Shown here: positions 50,456 to 60,127 of the stretch, piece after piece
How positions within the stretch are numbered: the stretch's first letter is position 1
Layout of the letters: every line of letters begins with the position of its first letter
Assembly: GCA_017643365.1 (NCBI GenBank)
Contig: JAEPNO010000007.1
Location: 124,001-188,000, forward strand
Direction: 5' to 3'
DNA length: 64,000 bases
DNA from: Balneolaceae bacterium
GTDB taxonomy: Bacteria > Bacteroidota > Rhodothermia > Balneolales > Balneolaceae
Program-made: the position numbers and the translations under genes
The notes under the pieces: generated by a model
The model's database searches: none
What the model was told of the DNA's origin: nothing
Seen by the model: only the letters and a program-made list of their open reading frames with translations

Positions 50456-53400
50456 ATGAAAAAATCTTTGAATACAAATTTTCTGGTCACTCTATTCATT
50501 TGTTCTTTTTCATTTTTAGCAAATGAACTATATGCTCAATCTGTTTCAATAGGTGCAGGTAGCTATAGTACAGTTACACCAGCCGGTAAAAATGAACCTC
50601 AAACTCAATCGGGGCAGCCAGCCATTCCAAGAGTTTCAACAGAATTTAACCAGCTGGTTAACACTAACGACTATTGGAGCAATTTGATTTTCCCCTATCG
50701 CGAGAATAATCATTTGAACGACGTTCCAGCTCATCCCGTAACTCTTTTTTCAAGTGAAAATGGATTTAATATAGGATATCTCAATACAAACCTTAGTGTA
50801 GATAACTACTACTACTACTCCGCCAGAAATAATATTGTTGTAAGTATTGCCGGCCTTAGTTCAAACAGAACCTCTACTCATAGTTACGGTGATTGGACCT
50901 TTTCTGCAAAGCTGGAATATGAAAATGCTTCGTTAGTTGCCACAACAGGCCACGGATTGCCTTACACATACTTTGATGTTGATGGTGGAGATATTCAGGT
51001 AGCTTCTGATTCAACTTTTAACATCTGGCATAATGTAGACGAGGTTATTGGTTTATCTATGGCAGGTGTCCACTACGGTTTATTTGCCCCAAATGGATCG
51101 AGTTGGACCGGAACTGACACGCTTACTTCTTCTTTAAACAACAAAGGATTTCTTTCTGTAGCAATTCTTCCTGATTCTACCAGCGAAACCCTCGAGTATT
51201 ATAGAAGTCATGCCTATGCTCAGGTTACAAATAGTGTTGTAGAGTGGGATTATGATGAGTTTAGCTCTGATTTAACATCCACATTTACCTATGAAACTGT
51301 ATTAATAGATTCTGCTGATGGAAATTCAAGTGAAACACTAACGGCACTTTATCGGCATCAATGGTTAAACACCTCAGATATCCTAACTAACTACACATAT
51401 GTATCTCCTCGTGGTACGATGAAGGTATTCGAAGGTAATTCGTTTTCTACCACATCCCGATTTTCCGGTATCTTGCCAACTTTGCCTGATTTAGGAGATT
51501 ACGACAGAATTCAACTACTCGAATATGTAAAAGAAATAGCTAATGAGATCTTGCCCATTTCAGATACTTACAATAATGGAAAACAAATGGGACGTTTTGC
51601 TGAAGTGGTTCATATTGCTGATCAACTTGGTGCCATTGCCGAACGTGATTATTTACTTTCTGAATTAAAAACACGCCTTGAAGACTGGTTTACAGCAGGT
51701 GGTGAACAGCAGTATTACTATAACGATACTTGGAATACATTAATTGGTTATCCTGATAGTTTCGGTTCTGCCAAAGAAATCAATGACCATCATTTTCATG
51801 CAGCATATGCTATTCGAGCAGCTGCTACCATAGCTCAATATGATAGTGTTTGGGCTTCTCAAGATAATTGGGGAGGAATGGTGAATATGTTGATTAGAGA
51901 TGCTAATAACTGGACCCGTAATGATGAATTATTTCCTTTTCTAAGAAATTTCGACGCCTATGCAGGGCATGCATGGGCTTCAGGGCATGGCGATTTCAAT
52001 TTCGCAGGACTAATACCGGGTAATAATCAGGAATCGAGTTCAGAATCTATGAATTTTAATTCCTCTACAATTCTTTGGGGTGAGATAACGGGGCAAGATG
52101 AAATCAGGGATTTGGGAATTTTCTTGTACACCAACGAAAATGCAGCTATAGACCAATATTGGTTCGATGTGGATAATGAAGTGTTCCCTGAAGATTTTCC
52201 TCACAATGCTATTGGCAGAGTCTGGGGATCTTCAGGTGATCATAACACCTGGTTTGGAAGCGATCCGGAATTTATTCATGGGATAAACTTTCTGCCTATT
52301 AATGCGGGATCATTTTATCTTGGGAAAAACCCTGCCTATATCATTGAAAATTATGACGAAATAGTTGCTGAAAGAGGTGGCCAACCAATACACTGGAAAG
52401 ATGTATTCTGGCAATACCTGGCAATGTCGGATGCCGATCTTGCGCTCTCTTACTATAATGCAGATCAAGGTTATCAACCTTTTGATGGTGAATCACGTGC
52501 TCATACTTTGCATTGGTTACATAATATTAGCAAAATGGGACAGTTCAATACTGAAGTGACTGCAGACATACCTATCTATGCTGTTTTCGTAAATGATGCC
52601 GGTGATACTACTTACACAGCATATAATGCTGCATCAGCAGATTTGACGGTACATTTTTCGGATGGCTTCTCTTTTATTGTCCCTGCCAAAACGTTAAAAG
52701 CACATCGAACCGTTGATTTAAGCAATAATATTCCGCCAGCACCAGAACCAACAAAAGATTCTGAGCTCGTGATGTCCATTTTCAGTGATAGTTATGCAAG
52801 TTTTGTGGATGCGGATTTTAACCCAGATGAAGGTCAAGCCACAGTTGCTACCCTTGAAATATTTGAGGGAAATAACGTTTTGAAATACGAAAATCTTGAT
52901 GTTCAATCCATCTTGTTACAGAACTCTATAAATATCAGTACAAGAGATACTTTTCATGTGGATTTATACACCAACAATCCTACAGCCTCGAACCTTCAAG
53001 TTGCACTACAAAGCACTGATGACTCAGAAATAATTTACGATTTTGGGATTTCTGATAGCAGCTGGCAATCCCTTAAAATACCTCTTGGCGATTTTATAGG
53101 AGCTTTCGATGCCACCAAATTGCAAAAGATAAAAGTTATGGCAAACAGTAATATTGGCACTCTTTATCTGGATAATATATTTTTCAGTGGTGATGAACCT
53201 GTGCAAATTGGGCCTGCAGAAGCAGCTCCTACCCCAGTTTTAGATCAAGAAAATGTTCTTTCAATTTTTAGTGATGTTTATCAAAACTTATCAAATACCA
53301 ACTACAACCCAAATTGGGGACAAGAAACACAGGTTTCATTTGTTGAAATTGATGGTAACAACACACTGAAATACACCAATCTAAACTATCAGGGCTCTGA

Positions 53401-54496
53401 ATTTGAGAACCCGATAAATGTTGCTGATATGGAGTGGATTCATCTTGATTATTGGACGAGCAACTCTACAGAATTAAAAGTTTACCTTATTAGCCCCGGT
53501 CCGCTTGAAACCTCATTTGAAATAGACGTTAAGCAAAACGATTGGCAAAGTATTGATATTCCTTTATCTGAGTATGTAGATGTTGTGAATTTATCGGAAG
53601 TGTTTCAATTGAAAATTGAAGGCAACGGAACCATCTTTTTTGATAATCTATATTTCGCTAAACCCTCTGAATTATCTACTGCTCCAACTCCTATTCACGA
53701 TTCAGATAAAGTAGTATCGCTATTCAGTAATCATTACGAAAATATTGTTGTTGATACATGGTCGGCTCCATGGGATCAGGCTGATGTTGAAGATGCAACC
53801 ATTCAAGGTGATGATGTAAAACTCTACACCAATGTAAATTTTGCGGGTATAGAGTTTTTCAGAACAGATCAAATCGATGGAACCGACTTAACCCACCTTT
53901 ATTTTAATTTATGGACTGAAGATCCAATTGACAGTACTACGAATTTCAAAGTAAAACTAGTCGATTTCGGCGCCAATGGTTCTTTTGGTGGTGGTGATGA
54001 TGTTGAACATGAACTAACCTTTGATAAAAGCACGACCGAAGGTTTTGAAAGTAAATCATGGATAATTTTTGATATTCCACTAAACGACTTTGTAAACATG
54101 ACCACAAGGGCGAATTTGTCTCAACTGCTCTTCGTTTCCAGAAGTTCTATTGATGATTTCTATCTGGATAACCTTTATTTCTACACCGGTGACGCAACAA
54201 ATGCTGAAATTAATGAGGAAATGGAGATTCCTGTTCATCTCGAATTACAGCAGAATTATCCGAATCCCTTTAATCCTTCAACAAATATTGAGTTCAGTAT
54301 TCCTAATCCATCTAATGTAAAATTATCAGTGTTCAATGCTATTGGACAGCATGTAGGTACATTAATAGATTCGCAATTATCGCCCGGCTCTTATTCTGTA
54401 GAATGGGATGCTTCAGGTGTTGCAACGGGAATCTACTTTTATCAATTACGTACAGCAGAACAAGTAATAACTAAACAAATGTTACTTATTAAGTAG
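50456..54496 (+). CDS. GH81 endo-beta-1,3-glucanase with three repeat domains and T9SS sorting signal
   Basis: 1346 residues. The signal peptide ends near YAQ28. Residues about 50-760 match glycoside hydrolase family 81: NDHHFHAAYAIRAAA, the (H)AWASGHGDFNFAG stretch and GNNQESSSESMNF hold the expected catalytic Asp and Glu residues. Three related domains of about 150 residues follow, near 771, 931 and 1083, each starting with a (L/V)xSIFSDxY-type strand and containing a DNLYF-type end; they resemble carbohydrate-binding modules of marine Bacteroidota enzymes. The C-terminus from about 1261 (LQQNYPNPFNPSTNIEFSI) is a type A T9SS sorting domain. It should degrade laminarin-like glucan at the cell surface. 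No SusC/SusD or other glycanase is adjacent. Confidence 0.9.
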   Translation: MKKSLNTNFLVTLFICSFSFLANELYAQSVSIGAGSYSTVTPAGKNEPQTQSGQPAIPRVSTEFNQLVNTNDYWSNLIFPYRENNHLNDVPAHPVTLFSSENGFNIGYLNTNLSVDNYYYYSARNNIVVSIAGLSSNRTSTHSYGDWTFSAKLEYENASLVATTGHGLPYTYFDVDGGDIQVASDSTFNIWHNVDEVIGLSMAGVHYGLFAPNGSSWTGTDTLTSSLNNKGFLSVAILPDSTSETLEYYRSHAYAQVTNSVVEWDYDEFSSDLTSTFTYETVLIDSADGNSSETLTALYRHQWLNTSDILTNYTYVSPRGTMKVFEGNSFSTTSRFSGILPTLPDLGDYDRIQLLEYVKEIANEILPISDTYNNGKQMGRFAEVVHIADQLGAIAERDYLLSELKTRLEDWFTAGGEQQYYYNDTWNTLIGYPDSFGSAKEINDHHFHAAYAIRAAATIAQYDSVWASQDNWGGMVNMLIRDANNWTRNDELFPFLRNFDAYAGHAWASGHGDFNFAGLIPGNNQESSSESMNFNSSTILWGEITGQDEIRDLGIFLYTNENAAIDQYWFDVDNEVFPEDFPHNAIGRVWGSSGDHNTWFGSDPEFIHGINFLPINAGSFYLGKNPAYIIENYDEIVAERGGQPIHWKDVFWQYLAMSDADLALSYYNADQGYQPFDGESRAHTLHWLHNISKMGQFNTEVTADIPIYAVFVNDAGDTTYTAYNAASADLTVHFSDGFSFIVPAKTLKAHRTVDLSNNIPPAPEPTKDSELVMSIFSDSYASFVDADFNPDEGQATVATLEIFEGNNVLKYENLDVQSILLQNSINISTRDTFHVDLYTNNPTASNLQVALQSTDDSEIIYDFGISDSSWQSLKIPLGDFIGAFDATKLQKIKVMANSNIGTLYLDNIFFSGDEPVQIGPAEAAPTPVLDQENVLSIFSDVYQNLSNTNYNPNWGQETQVSFVEIDGNNTLKYTNLNYQGSEFENPINVADMEWIHLDYWTSNSTELKVYLISPGPLETSFEIDVKQNDWQSIDIPLSEYVDVVNLSEVFQLKIEGNGTIFFDNLYFAKPSELSTAPTPIHDSDKVVSLFSNHYENIVVDTWSAPWDQADVEDATIQGDDVKLYTNVNFAGIEFFRTDQIDGTDLTHLYFNLWTEDPIDSTTNFKVKLVDFGANGSFGGGDDVEHELTFDKSTTEGFESKSWIIFDIPLNDFVNMTTRANLSQLLFVSRSSIDDFYLDNLYFYTGDATNAEINEEMEIPVHLELQQNYPNPFNPSTNIEFSIPNPSNVKLSVFNAIGQHVGTLIDSQLSPGSYSVEWDASGVATGIYFYQLRTAEQVITKQMLLIK

Positions 54497-55296: not shown

Positions 55297-57078
55297 ATGA
55301 ATATCGAGTTCCTAAGCCTCCGATGGAAGATTCTAGCCGGATTCGTAAGCCTGGTTTTCGTAATCGTGCTAAGTTTACTACTTAGTTTAGGATCTCTTGT
55401 GGAACATCGCATCCGCGAAGATATTGATCAAAACTTTGTGGAAGCCGGTCGAGTATTCGAACGCATTCAGGAAATACGATTTCGTCAACTTCGCCAAACT
55501 GCCCTGTTATTGGCCGAAACACCCAGTTTAAAGGCTGCCATCACCACAGCAGATACAAATACGGTAAACGATATTATTCGCGAGGATTTACTTCCGCTGC
55601 TTGATTTCGACCCCATTATCCCCGATTCGCTGATGCCAGAATCTTTTTTCTCGAATCCTGATTCGGCAGGTTTATTACTTATTGCAGACAAACTCGGTAA
55701 ACCGCTTGGTCGGCTTTCTTCCACGCCTCTACCTACTTTTTCTATCGCTGATCGTGCCGGAGTTACCGAAGCATTGAACGGTTTTTTCCCAGCTCAATCG
55801 TACATTTGGGCAGAAAACGCACGGTATTTTAACGTAATCACCATGCCCATTTTTGCCGGATTTAATTCCTTAGGCACCGTGAGTTTTGGGCTTCCAATCC
55901 GACAGGAAGAAGCCAATCAATTATCGAAAGATATTGGTATGGATGTGATCTTTTTTGTGGATGACGCCATGATCGCTAATACCTTCGATGCACTTTCTCC
56001 TTCCGATCAAGAAATATTGGAGCAGAGCATTCACACTTCTAGTTTTAACGTGTTGCAAATGAATGAGGCGGCAACATCAGAAATTGTGATCGACCATGAA
56101 CAATGGCTGATTTACCTCGCTCCCATGTTTAACGACAATGCCTCTTTTTCGGGAATTAAAGGATATTTTGGTATCGCTAAATCGCTGGATGAGGCCTTGT
56201 TGCCACTCCAAAATCTGCAATTATTGATTTTTGGAATTGGCTTACTTGCCGTAATTGCGGCCATTGGAATAAGTGTATTAATCACAAAAAGAATAACCCG
56301 ACCGATTTATTTATTAGTGGAAGGAGTTCAACGCGTAGAAAATGAGGATTTCAGTCAGCCTGTTCCGGTTACTTCTCAAGACGAAATCGGGACGCTAACC
56401 AAGGCTTTCAATCATCTGGTAGAAAACCTTCAAGAGCGCTTGCTGATGCTTAAATTTGTGTCTACAGCAACGCTGGATGCCATCAAAAAAGACCTTACTC
56501 GCATCGAACCCGGTGGCGAACGGCGAGATATCACCGTTTTCTTTTCTGATATTCGTGGATTTACTTCCTGGAGCGAAAAACATACTCCCGAACAGGTCAT
56601 CGACATGCTAAACAATCTGCTGAGTTTTCAAGCCGAGATTGTGCAGGAACTTGGCGGCGATGTCGACAAGTTCGTAGGCGATGAATTAGTTGCTGTTTTT
56701 CAAGGTCCGAAGAAAGATCAACTTGCGGTACAAGCGGCTATTCAAATTCAGCAACAGTTACCAAGTATGCTAAGCAAAGGGCAGGATAACCTAGCAGTTG
56801 GGATTGGAATTAATTCCGGTGAAGTAGTTATGGGAGCCATGGGCAGCGAAAATCGAATGGATTACACCGTTTTGGGCACCACGGTAAATCTCGGCGCACG
56901 GCTTTGTTCAGCGGCAGATAAACATCAAATCCTAATTTCGGAAGCCGTGTTTCTGAATCTTGAACGTAAAATTAGTGCACTAAAACTAGAATCCATTCAG
57001 GTAAAAGGCATTTCAGAACCGGTACAAATTTTTGAAATAGAATGGCAGAATCAACAAAAATCCATCGGTGTTTCATAG
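55297..57078 (+). CDS. Membrane adenylate cyclase with periplasmic sensor and HAMP domain
   Basis: 593 residues: helix 1 (about 11-33), a periplasmic dCache-like sensor (about 34-300), helix 2 (about 305-327), HAMP (about 328-382, ITRPIYLLVEGVQRVE) and a class III cyclase domain (about 405-580). Metal aspartates sit in FFSDIRGFTSW (near 417) and KFVGDELVAVF (near 464). The Lys of DKFVGD and the Asp of DYTVLGT are the pair that selects adenine, so cAMP is predicted rather than cGMP. NLGARL supplies transition-state Asn and Arg. It is sandwiched between a cupredoxin (2-base gap) and a porin-like protein. Confidence 0.92.
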   Translation: MNIEFLSLRWKILAGFVSLVFVIVLSLLLSLGSLVEHRIREDIDQNFVEAGRVFERIQEIRFRQLRQTALLLAETPSLKAAITTADTNTVNDIIREDLLPLLDFDPIIPDSLMPESFFSNPDSAGLLLIADKLGKPLGRLSSTPLPTFSIADRAGVTEALNGFFPAQSYIWAENARYFNVITMPIFAGFNSLGTVSFGLPIRQEEANQLSKDIGMDVIFFVDDAMIANTFDALSPSDQEILEQSIHTSSFNVLQMNEAATSEIVIDHEQWLIYLAPMFNDNASFSGIKGYFGIAKSLDEALLPLQNLQLLIFGIGLLAVIAAIGISVLITKRITRPIYLLVEGVQRVENEDFSQPVPVTSQDEIGTLTKAFNHLVENLQERLLMLKFVSTATLDAIKKDLTRIEPGGERRDITVFFSDIRGFTSWSEKHTPEQVIDMLNNLLSFQAEIVQELGGDVDKFVGDELVAVFQGPKKDQLAVQAAIQIQQQLPSMLSKGQDNLAVGIGINSGEVVMGAMGSENRMDYTVLGTTVNLGARLCSAADKHQILISEAVFLNLERKISALKLESIQVKGISEPVQIFEIEWQNQQKSIGVS

Positions 57079-57088
57079 GAGATTCATT

Positions 57089-58321
57089 ATGAAGAAAACA
57101 ATCGTCAGTTCATTTCTGATCGCATTAATCGCAGTAATATCATTGCCCGCTCAGATTAGTATTTCCGGTTTGGCCGACTTCGAAATTCGATATGCCGGCG
57201 ATGATTCATCACCTTATATCAATCAAACACCCGGTAAAGGACTTTCAATTTTTACTCCAAATCTTAGGCTGTTTTTTCAGGGCGACATCAACGATTCCTG
57301 GTTCGTAAACGCCGTTCTTCAGGCCGATCATTATTCCGGAAAGGAATTAAGTGATCCTTTTTTCTCTGTATTTAATATTAATTGGACTCCCAATCTAGAT
57401 TCCGATTTACTACTTACCGCCGGGCGATTTATAATCCCTTACGGTTCATACAGTCAGCGTTTTTTATCTTTTGATAATCCATTTGTGCATTTACCTCTCT
57501 CGCATGCCACCGGTTTTCCAATAAGCAAAAACTTCGGTTTTATTGGCGATGGAAGATATGATCCAAATGAAGTAGTTAATTTTTATAACACCAACGAAAT
57601 GGGTGCTACCATGGTGTATCAGCGCATGTACACGCAAGGTATTCAAGCTGCGTATGCTTTTGGTGATGCAGATCGAATCCGAACCAAACTTGCGATAACA
57701 CATGCTCCTGCCTCATCGCATGCCGATTTTGGCAATGGTGAGACCTTAGCTTTTACAGGAAGGCTGGAACTTCAACCCGTGGTTTGGGCAACGCTTGGGT
57801 TATCTAAAAGTCAGGGAACATTTCTTCAAAATAATGCAGCTAGCGATTCTTTGTTGATTTATGATTTATCATCCTACGAACAGGATTTAGTGGGGGCAGA
57901 TTTGAGTCTGAACTATCAGTATTACACGCTAAATCTGGAATGGAATCAAAGCTTTTGGAAAGCTCCCTATTATGATAAAGATGTTTCCACATCAACATCT
58001 CCGCAAACCGGAAAAGCCACCATCGATCATTATTCTATCGAGTTAATTTATGACACCCCTTTTGTTGTTGGCGGACATTTTGCAATGAGATACGAACATA
58101 TGACTCCCGGAGAAATCGAGATATATGAACGCGATAATTCGGATCTGAAAATCAACCAATCTTTTACTGATTTCACGTACTCCCGGACCAGGTTGGAATT
58201 CTCTGCAGGATATAAACTCGATCGAAATATTATACTGAAAGGATCTTATCTATTATCTAAAAATGATGGCGCAGAATTAGACGATAATGTTGTTACACTG
58301 CAATTAAGTGTTCTGTTTTAA
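57089..58321 (+). CDS. Porin-like outer-membrane beta-barrel protein
   Basis: About 410 residues from ATG 57089, which has GGAG 7-8 bases upstream; the frame extends 7 codons earlier into the cyclase gene. The signal peptide ends near LPAQ. The mature part alternates amphipathic strands and turns (LRLFFQGDINDSWFVNAVLQADHY, LLLTAGRFIIPYGSYSQRF) typical of trimeric porin-type barrels and ends VTLQLSVLF with terminal Phe. LLLTAGRFIIPYG recalls phosphate-porin-like families. It completes the cupredoxin-cyclase operon. Confidence 0.85.
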   Translation: MKKTIVSSFLIALIAVISLPAQISISGLADFEIRYAGDDSSPYINQTPGKGLSIFTPNLRLFFQGDINDSWFVNAVLQADHYSGKELSDPFFSVFNINWTPNLDSDLLLTAGRFIIPYGSYSQRFLSFDNPFVHLPLSHATGFPISKNFGFIGDGRYDPNEVVNFYNTNEMGATMVYQRMYTQGIQAAYAFGDADRIRTKLAITHAPASSHADFGNGETLAFTGRLELQPVVWATLGLSKSQGTFLQNNAASDSLLIYDLSSYEQDLVGADLSLNYQYYTLNLEWNQSFWKAPYYDKDVSTSTSPQTGKATIDHYSIELIYDTPFVVGGHFAMRYEHMTPGEIEIYERDNSDLKINQSFTDFTYSRTRLEFSAGYKLDRNIILKGSYLLSKNDGAELDDNVVTLQLSVLF

Positions 58322-58498
58322 TTACTATTGTACTTGATATTCTCTGTCTAAGTAAAAAATACGGTTCCTATCTCATCGGTTTTTCAAGTAATTCAGATGA
58401 TCGCACCTTGTATTTTTTTAAAAAACAAAGGTAAAATTCACACCGGTTTTTTAAATATAATCTGCAATTTTTGATATTGCATTAGATGTTATTCGAAC

Positions 58499-58519
58499 GT
58501 ACTTTGTATTTAAAAGTAC
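58499..58519 (+). promoter_or_regulatory. Operator-like palindrome 1 of the winged-helix regulator
   Basis: Perfect 7-bp arms GTACTTT (58499-58505) and AAAGTAC (58513-58519) flank a 7-base spacer GTATTTA. It ends 5 bases before the start codon at 58525. A second, nearly identical element lies at 59479-59497 before the other membrane protein of this cassette. Binding there would block translation-start-proximal transcription. The upstream gap 58322-58498 holds no gene. Confidence 0.7.
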
Positions 58520-58524
58520 TTTCT

Positions 58525-59136
58525 ATGAAAACAGAACAGAATCATCTTCAAGATATCGCTGAGATACGTTCCATCATGGAGCGATCCACAAAATTTTTCT
58601 CACTTTCCGGCTTAGCAGGGGTATCAGCGGGAATATTTGCGCTAGCCGGTGCTGGCATTGTGTATACTCAATTCGGTTTTAATCCGGATAGCTTAACCTA
58701 CACTGTGGATGCAGAAACCGGTAGAAACGTAATTTTGATTGCCTTTGGTGTTTTGTTTTTAGCGATGAGCTCAGCCGCGTTTTTATCGCAAAGAAAAGCT
58801 TCAAAAAGTAACGAAGTGCTTTGGTCCTCCCCCGCACGTCGGCTTTTAGCCAATGTTGCCATTCCGTTATTTTCTGGCGGGTTATTTGCGTTAATCATGC
58901 ACTTTTATGGTTACAGTGGTTTTCTGATTCCGATCACCTTAATTTTTTACGGACATGCATTAGTTTCAGCCGGCTCGTACACATACAACGATCTAAAAGT
59001 ATTGGGTGTACTATTTATCATTTTAGGATTAATGAGCGTTGTATTTATTCAGTACAGCTTGATTATCTGGTGCCTTGGTTTTGGACTTTCTCACATAATC
59101 TATGGTGTTTTCATGCACATTAAATACGAGCGGTGA
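58525..59136 (+). CDS. Membrane protein of an HTH_34-linked cassette
   Basis: About 203 residues from ATG 58525, which follows the palindrome directly; the frame extends 13 codons upstream through the palindrome. The N-terminal cytoplasmic segment IAEIRSIMERSTKFFSLSGLAG leads into about six hydrophobic helices. From memory, proteins beginning EIRxMMERSxxFxSLSGLxG occur widely in Bacteroidota next to small winged-helix regulators, without a known function. Its stop overlaps the regulator's GTG by 4 bases. Confidence 0.8.
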   Translation: MKTEQNHLQDIAEIRSIMERSTKFFSLSGLAGVSAGIFALAGAGIVYTQFGFNPDSLTYTVDAETGRNVILIAFGVLFLAMSSAAFLSQRKASKSNEVLWSSPARRLLANVAIPLFSGGLFALIMHFYGYSGFLIPITLIFYGHALVSAGSYTYNDLKVLGVLFIILGLMSVVFIQYSLIIWCLGFGLSHIIYGVFMHIKYER

Positions 59137-59441
59137 GTAATGTGAAGGTATCCTTCAATGATTTACATAAAGCCTTCGAAAATCGGGTCAGGCTTGGCAT
59201 CATGTCGGCTTTGGTAGTGAACGATCATCTCGATTTCAATTCATTAAAAGAGTTGCTAGAGGTCACAGATGGCAATCTTGCCACTCACTTAAAAAAGTTG
59301 GAAAAGGAAGATTTTATCCGCGTGGAAAAAACATTTATCGATCGCAAACCAAACACTAAATACCTTGCAACGAAAGAAGGAAAACAAGCTTTTACCCAAC
59401 ATTTAAATGTGATGGAACAAATCATCAATCAGCAAAAATGA
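59133..59441 (+). CDS. Winged-helix transcriptional regulator, HTH_34 type
   Basis: 102 residues from a GTG overlapping the previous stop (GTGA). A single MarR/ArsR-like winged helix: ALVVNDHLDFNSLKELLEVTDGNLATHLKKLEKEDFIRVEKTFIDRKPNTKYLAT spans helices 2-3 and the wing (about 25-80; cited by its ends VNDHLDF and TKYLAT). It contains no ligand domain and no cysteine, so it probably senses through a partner or binds constitutively. Two palindromes flank its operon, one before each membrane protein gene, and are its likely targets. Confidence 0.9.
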   Translation: MSNVKVSFNDLHKAFENRVRLGIMSALVVNDHLDFNSLKELLEVTDGNLATHLKKLEKEDFIRVEKTFIDRKPNTKYLATKEGKQAFTQHLNVMEQIINQQK

Positions 59442-59478
59442 ATTCGATTCTGTAACAACCCAAAAAAATTTAGCTATT

Positions 59479-59497
59479 CACTTTGTAATTAAAAGTG
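59479..59497 (+). promoter_or_regulatory. Operator-like palindrome 2 of the winged-helix regulator
   Basis: Perfect 6-bp arms CACTTT (59479-59484) and AAAGTG (59492-59497) around the spacer GTAATTA. It matches element 1 at 17 of 19 central positions by eye (ACTTTGTA-TTAAAAGT core, then CTTTCT downstream of both). It lies 38 bases after the regulator's stop and 45 before the start of the next membrane protein gene at 59543. Confidence 0.7.
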
Positions 59498-59542
59498 CTT
59501 TCTAAAATTATTAAACTTAACTTAAATAAAACGGTGATCCCT

Positions 59543-60127
59543 ATGGAAAACTCATCTAAACTAAAATCAATAATCACTTCTCCCTCATCGCTATCAGAAG
59601 CCGTAATTGCTCCGGCAGTTGGTGCTTTTTTGATCATTATGATTCCACTTATAGCTATGCAATTTACAAGCGAAGTGGTTTGGACGACCTCCGACTTTAT
59701 CATTGCATGGACCATCCTATTTTCGATTGGTTTTGCATTTCAGGCAATTGGCAAGCGAGCCAAAAATAGTAGCTACAAATTTGCTACCGGCATAGCTGCA
59801 TTTACAACCTTATTTGTGATCTGGTCGAATCTGGCGGTTGGAATTATCGGGAATGAGGATAATCCACTAAACTTGATGTATTTCGGTGTGGTTTTGTTGA
59901 TGGTGTTCGGTTCTTACATCGCGCAGTTAAAAGCCAAGGCTATGTCGAAAGTGTTATTTGCTTCAGCTGTATTGCATGCTCTTGTTAGTATTATCGGATT
60001 ATCTATTTTCAGTACTCAGAACCCGGGCTATACCATTGTAAATATTGCAATCATTAATGTTGTATTAGTAACAATGTGGGCTGTATCCGGATTGTTGTAT
60101 GGCAAAGCATCTGAAGTGGTAGATTAA
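59543..60127 (+). CDS. Second membrane protein of the HTH_34-linked cassette
   Basis: About 194 residues from ATG 59543. The frame is open 16 codons upstream, but MENSSKLKS is a more natural start. Six hydrophobic helices are apparent, with signatures LIIMIPLIAMQFTSEVVW, FTTLFVIWSNLAVGIIG and NLMYFGVVLLMVFGSYIA. This resembles, from memory, an uncharacterised Bacteroidota membrane family that often accompanies winged-helix regulators. It is preceded by operator-like palindrome 2. Confidence 0.8.
   Translation: MENSSKLKSIITSPSSLSEAVIAPAVGAFLIIMIPLIAMQFTSEVVWTTSDFIIAWTILFSIGFAFQAIGKRAKNSSYKFATGIAAFTTLFVIWSNLAVGIIGNEDNPLNLMYFGVVLLMVFGSYIAQLKAKAMSKVLFASAVLHALVSIIGLSIFSTQNPGYTIVNIAIINVVLVTMWAVSGLLYGKASEVVD

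Follow-up and report, generated by a model that had tools for sequence, protein, structure and literature searches.

We found that a small HTH_34 winged-helix regulator, the membrane protein encoded directly upstream of it (m1) and a pair of palindromic operator sites (op1 and op2) make up a module that is real, conserved and, as far as can be told, undescribed, of the type in which a small autoregulator is combined with a membrane protein. Conservation across genomes established the operator and its link to the regulator, as well as the pairing of m1 with the regulator and the swapping of the cargo gene that follows op2. The sequence comparisons also supported the interpretation given by the initial annotation, in which the regulator represses or activates both membrane genes of the locus and itself, as well as a difference in promoter context between op1 and op2. 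The window, a stretch of 64,000 nucleotides from a Balneolaceae bacterium, corresponds to positions 124001–188000 of its contig, and the genome comprises 3.77 Mb in 51 contigs.

Most proteins of the module have no assigned function and, to our knowledge, few regulators of Bacteroidota have a defined operator. With its 22 conserved bases, the site makes the regulon open to direct testing and links CreD, together with several anonymous membrane families, to a single control circuit; the module is also a route to asking how Bacteroidota monitor the inner membrane.

Organization of the locus

The whole locus from op1 to the second membrane protein gene (m2) lies on the plus strand. Both operators were defined from sequence, conservation and shuffles. 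op1 (58499..58522) consists of the palindrome GTACTTTGTATTTAAAAGTAC (58499–58519; arms GTACTTT and AAAGTAC, spacer GTATTTA) and a third half-site, ACTTT. The TTG of TATTG at 58477..58479 was assigned as a putative -33 promoter element from the alignment of op1 sites, and the m1 ATG at 58525 is 5 bases downstream of the palindrome. m1 (58525..59136) is a six-helix membrane protein of 203 aa with a conserved N-terminal helix and no Pfam family, and the gene of the 102-aa regulator (59133..59441) begins with a GTG at 59133, overlapping the end of m1 at 59136 by 4 bases. The A-tract AAAAAAATTT (59462..59471) precedes op2 (59479..59501), which consists of the palindrome CACTTTGTAATTAAAAGTG (59479–59497; arms CACTTT and AAAGTG, spacer GTAATTA) and the third half-site GCTTT. 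m2 (59543..60127), the cargo after op2 in Balneolota, is a six-helix membrane protein of 194 aa, likewise without a Pfam family; its likely ATG is at 59543.

The palindromes, arm sequences and coordinates of the initial annotation all matched the sequence, as did the CTTTCT tail common to both palindromes, the shared spacer (identical at 6 of 7 bases), the 4-base overlap between regulator and m1 and the bare 102-aa HTH_34 protein. The second palindrome is upstream of m2, as had been described, but not adjacent to it, being 45 bases from the ATG. Two operators were also correctly recognized, but each unit has three half-sites, not two.

Operator sequence and rarity

A third half-site, ACTTT or GCTTT, lies directly 3' of each palindrome in the window; therefore, the conserved unit was written as ACTTTGn5(C/A)AAAGTnCTTT, a site of 22 bases. 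The window contains two copies of the pattern ACTTTN7AAAGTNCTTTCT, whereas 100 dinucleotide shuffles yielded none, and the bare ACTTTN7AAAGT occurred twice against 0.19 expected. The exact 17-mer ACTTTGTAnTTAAAAGT has two copies in the whole 3.77-Mb genome, both at this locus. At two mismatches, a looser pattern showed no excess over the reversed control across the genome, and no convincing further operator target was found in the window's own genome. A one-mismatch site at position 55470 of contig C8, upstream of a gene with a TypA/BipA GTPase-like start, was rejected as a further target; its sequence has the appearance of an ordinary TACTTTG -7 element.

The left arm read ACTTTG in 86 of 96 op1 sites and 84 of 90 op2 sites. 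The right arm read CAAAGT in 60/96 op1 and 76/90 op2 sites and AAAAGT, the form in the window, in 31/96 and 9/90. The third half-site nCTTT was found at 94 of the op1 sites and 76 of the op2 sites.

Conservation and association with the regulator

Of 394 Bacteroidota genomes, 79 contained the strict site ACTTTGN5CAAAGTACTTT and none its reversed control. Strict sites were often paired on one strand, approximately 950–1000 bases apart, a spacing that corresponds to the length of m1 plus the regulator. When the same 394 genomes were searched with a profile, each of the 79 strict-motif genomes proved to encode a strong regulator orthologue (E 6e-23 or better). At a cut-off of E 1e-22, approximately 149 genomes contained an orthologue, and the motif occurred in 0 of the approximately 245 others. 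The two genome lists were matched by hand, and the association at this cut-off was strong (Fisher 1e-41, not corrected for kinship).

In the gene-blind scan of 58 related genomes, ACTTTN7AAAGTACTTT yielded 36 sites against 8 for the reversed control, and 35 of the 36 lay at this locus. Of these genomes, 44 encode a relative of the regulator and about half a close orthologue. Among named genomes, Balneola sp. EhC07 has the closest regulator, with 79% identity. Distant HTH_34 paralogues (L036–L040) had different neighbours, and the exact motif was absent from them. At 80 named loci covering many Bacteroidota classes, op1 was found in 72 and op2 in 67, and the palindrome was also conserved at nearly all Balneolota loci. 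m1 adjoined the regulator in 79/80 loci. Where long flanks were available (20 loci), m1 was directly upstream of the regulator in every case, and an m2 relative was located within a few kb downstream in 18.

These counts bear on what the initial annotation had named as decisive, indicating that the palindrome is conserved upstream of regulator orthologues and is not scattered at random, and that the motif recurs near HTH_34 genes in related genomes and, beyond them, across Bacteroidota. Of the three genes whose co-occurrence the initial annotation had wanted counted, m1 and the regulator occurred together, but m2 proved to be only one of several alternative cargoes.

Regulator and membrane proteins

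The regulator matched HTH_34 (PF13601) at 97.5 bits (cut-off 27) over profile positions 1–80 of 80, and is a bare winged helix without a sensor or other extra domain. It scored 33.1 bits against the ArsR/SmtB model NF033788 (cut-off 55) and 15.3 bits against the SdpR autorepressor model NF033789 (cut-off 100), below threshold in both. The only sequence match in the PDB was PH1061 of Pyrococcus horikoshii (1UB9, E 1.5e-7). T45, D46, G47, N48, L49, A50 and H52 were invariant in 25 orthologues, and T45–A50 and H52 likely lie in the recognition helix. A conserved cysteine was absent from the consensus of these orthologues.

The window's m1 matched no Pfam family above the cut-off, and 66 m1 members gave only scattered weak matches, none of the SdpI type. 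The model of m1 (pLDDT 87.8) has seven helices, the first ahead of the membrane part, and 8 of the 19 invariant columns fall in residues 18–36, at or just after this helix. Assuming six membrane-spanning helices and a cytosolic location of the basic C-terminus, the N-terminus of m1 would face the cytosol as well, which would make it a candidate docking site. The model of m2 (pLDDT 84.5, from 9 sequences) has six long helices. Foldseek returned no match with E under 0.001 for either protein; the best VIA-align match of m1 was to a designed helical barrel (Z 8.5, rmsd 4.0 over 140). Homology between m1 and m2 was considered and dropped, as no profile match was obtained. Half-length relatives of m2 (94–98 aa, three helices), ending in AVGIFGTPFAGS or a close variant, were observed in other classes (L074, L080, L089, L098, L102), which suggests that the six-helix m2 may reflect a fusion or an extension.

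Promoter contexts of op1 and op2

At op1, 80/96 sites have a TTG whose first base lies 24 or 25 bases ahead of ACTTTG, and the m1 ATG lies 7–9 bases past the 17-mer in 79/96. T at -2 was present in 83/96 op1 sites compared with 44/90 op2 sites. In Flavobacterium psychrophilum, the -7 consensus TAnnTTTG was mapped at -12 to -5 (PMC9723704); by this mapping, the putative start point would lie inside the op1 palindrome. The pattern upstream of op1 is consistent with a promoter of the Bacteroidota type in which the left arm of the operator would incorporate the -7 element. In the window itself, the op1 -7 element reads GTACTTTG, an imperfect form that departs from TAnnTTTG.

At op2, the -33 TTG was found in 0/90 sites. 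An A-tract of at least 8 bases, ending approximately 8 bases upstream, was present in 84/90 op2 sites compared with 8/96 op1 sites; the frequency expected from a simple shuffle of the same bases was 7%. The forms of the op2 tract range from A1T7 to A7T3, and no hairpin precedes it in the phylum-wide set of op2 sites. The fixed distance of this tract of about 9 bases from op2, and not from op1, was seen in the window (59462–59471) as well as across the phylum.

Swappable cargo and lone operators

The gene after op2 in the 80 loci was most often CreD (37), followed by C9 (21), a family without a Pfam match, and m2 (7). op2 precedes a DUF4153 gene in L168 and an exosortase-family gene in L129. 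In Mucilaginibacter (L106, L108, L118), the gene after op2 encodes a protein of 831–836 aa, which in L106 resembles, by eye, the XrtN VIT-domain protein (TIGR04477, scored only in L181). Operators stand before the gene of this XrtN VIT-domain protein in L181 and before the similar-looking or exosortase genes of L106, L108, L118 and L129, so that the regulator may be linked to an exosortase system. Homology between C9 and DUF4153 and between CreD and C9 was rejected for want of a profile match.

Lone operators, away from the regulator, were found before m2 (L186, L190, L195), CreD (L192) and C9 (L189), and also before other genes, mostly membrane or envelope ones. In one genus (L176, L178–L180, L182, L183), a lone operator stands before a YiiX-type papain-like enzyme (C92) and a Coq4-like protein, in most cases with a small membrane protein too. 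Functionally, the cargo is a mixed set in which some proteins are not membrane proteins.

Among the best CreD matches, the operator was present at 11 of 12 regulator-linked genes and absent from 17 of 18 unlinked genes. The latter count rules out CreD as an obligate target; CreD is a frequent, not a fixed, member of the cargo, and the window's own genome gave no match to it (PF06123). Among the best m2 matches, four regulator-free genomes (G172, G302, G330, G422) carry m2 without the operator.

A conserved small membrane protein of 60–66 aa with the motif VEDEPGAIPLLLI was observed after the regulator in L044, L050, L051 and L054 and after CreD in L058, with partial resemblance by eye in L042, L043, L045, L046, L052, L063 and L064. 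It is a further operon member in many Balneolota but is absent between the regulator and op2 in the window.

Proposed mechanism and alternatives

On balance, we favour, with a modest degree of confidence, a compact one-component module in which an HTH_34 protein would act at two operators, m1 would sense and a membrane cargo would be controlled. The HTH_34 protein would bind the inverted repeat ACTTTGn5CAAAGT, probably as a dimer, with a second dimer perhaps on the third half-site; given the conservation, we have high confidence that it binds these sites. A regulator bound at op1 would sit over both the -7 element and the start point and thereby block transcription of m1 and its own gene. The overlap of op1 with the -7 element makes autorepression the likeliest action, and repression at op1, the best-supported step after binding, is considered probable. 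op2 would govern the next transcript, which is m2 in the window. m1, co-translated with the regulator, would sense an inner-membrane or envelope condition and alter DNA binding by the regulator, which it might hold at the membrane through its conserved N-terminal helix. Release of the regulator would then yield more m1, regulator and membrane cargo. Since the regulator has no sensor domain and m1 is its sole constant partner, m1 is the natural sensor; this role, proposed from gene order and the missing domain, is tentative, with the balance tipped slightly against it.

The HTH_34 protein may instead sense a small molecule itself, or be a plain constitutive autorepressor, with m1 as a mere target. 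The regulator scores weakly against MarR, ArsR and PadR models, families in which many members bind ligands, and m1 stands under op1 exactly as the cargo stands under op2. However, a protein of 102 aa with neither an extra domain nor a conserved cysteine in its consensus argues against ligand sensing, and the constancy of m1 (79/80) while the cargo changes favours a fixed role with the regulator. We regard this explanation as rather doubtful.

Activation, at least at op2, was also considered. The lack of a -33 TTG there implies that the mode of action at op2 could differ from that at op1 and could even be activation, and the A-tract in 84/90 sites, together with T at -2 in only 44/90, points the same way. 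However, the operator is placed equally relative to ACTTTG at op2 and at op1, where RNA polymerase would be blocked, and activators usually bind farther upstream, ahead of the promoter. An activating regulator is unlikely.

It is very improbable that some transcription factor other than the neighbouring HTH_34 protein binds the sites, as an orthologue accompanies the strict motif in 79/79 genomes, the motif is missing from all of the approximately 245 others, and genomes with only distant HTH_34 relatives also lack it. Finally, the palindromes could form a 5–7-bp stem and op2 often follows a T-run, but RNA hairpins or terminators in place of protein-binding sites have next to no probability and were ruled out by arms that are fixed rather than covarying (ACTTTG in 170/186, with A facing G in AAAAGT breaking the sixth pair in 40), by an op2 tract that varies from A1T7 to A7T3 and by the missing hairpins before it.

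Loss of CreD damages the envelope in Stenotrophomonas (PMC4689548); this role of CreD and the mainly membrane nature of the cargo suggest inner-membrane or envelope upkeep as the task of the favoured one-component module. A broader possibility, which we offer as speculative, is phylum-wide sensing of the membrane state, in which m1 would control a bare HTH_34 repressor acting at a three-half-site operator on interchangeable upkeep proteins (m2, CreD, C9, DUF4153 and exosortase partners).

Comparison with known systems

SdpI–SdpR of Bacillus subtilis combines a membrane immunity and signal protein with a small autorepressor. Like SdpI–SdpR, the present module is an operon of two genes, one for a multi-pass membrane protein and one for a bare winged-helix protein, here a putative autoregulator. 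However, the regulator here is of the HTH_34 type (SdpR model, 15.3 vs 100 bits), m1 has no Pfam match, a second operator with swappable membrane cargo is present and no toxin gene was found. The module thus appears to work like SdpI–SdpR but is not a member of that system.

The CreBCD system of Proteobacteria (PMC4689548) is similar in that CreD is a regulated inner-membrane protein encoded close to its regulator, an arrangement also seen at many op2 sites of Bacteroidota; the local regulator here is an HTH_34 protein and not a two-component system. In many relatives, the module occupies the position relative to CreD that CreBC has in Proteobacteria. PH1061 (1UB9) is the same HTH_34-type bare winged-helix protein, but is archaeal and was deposited as hypothetical. 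We know of no operator or membrane partner for PH1061. Searches of the open-licence literature, beyond which subscription papers may have been missed, found no description of this module or its operator, nor any account of HTH_34 regulators or of how CreD is controlled in Bacteroidota.

Genes upstream of op1

Further upstream in the window, 50456–54496 encodes a secreted protein of 1346 aa, by eye probably a glycoside hydrolase, whose C-terminus resembles, also by eye, a type IX secretion sorting region. A membrane protein of 593 aa (55297–57078) has, by eye, a C-terminal adenylate/guanylate cyclase domain and is followed by a porin-like ORF (57068–58321).
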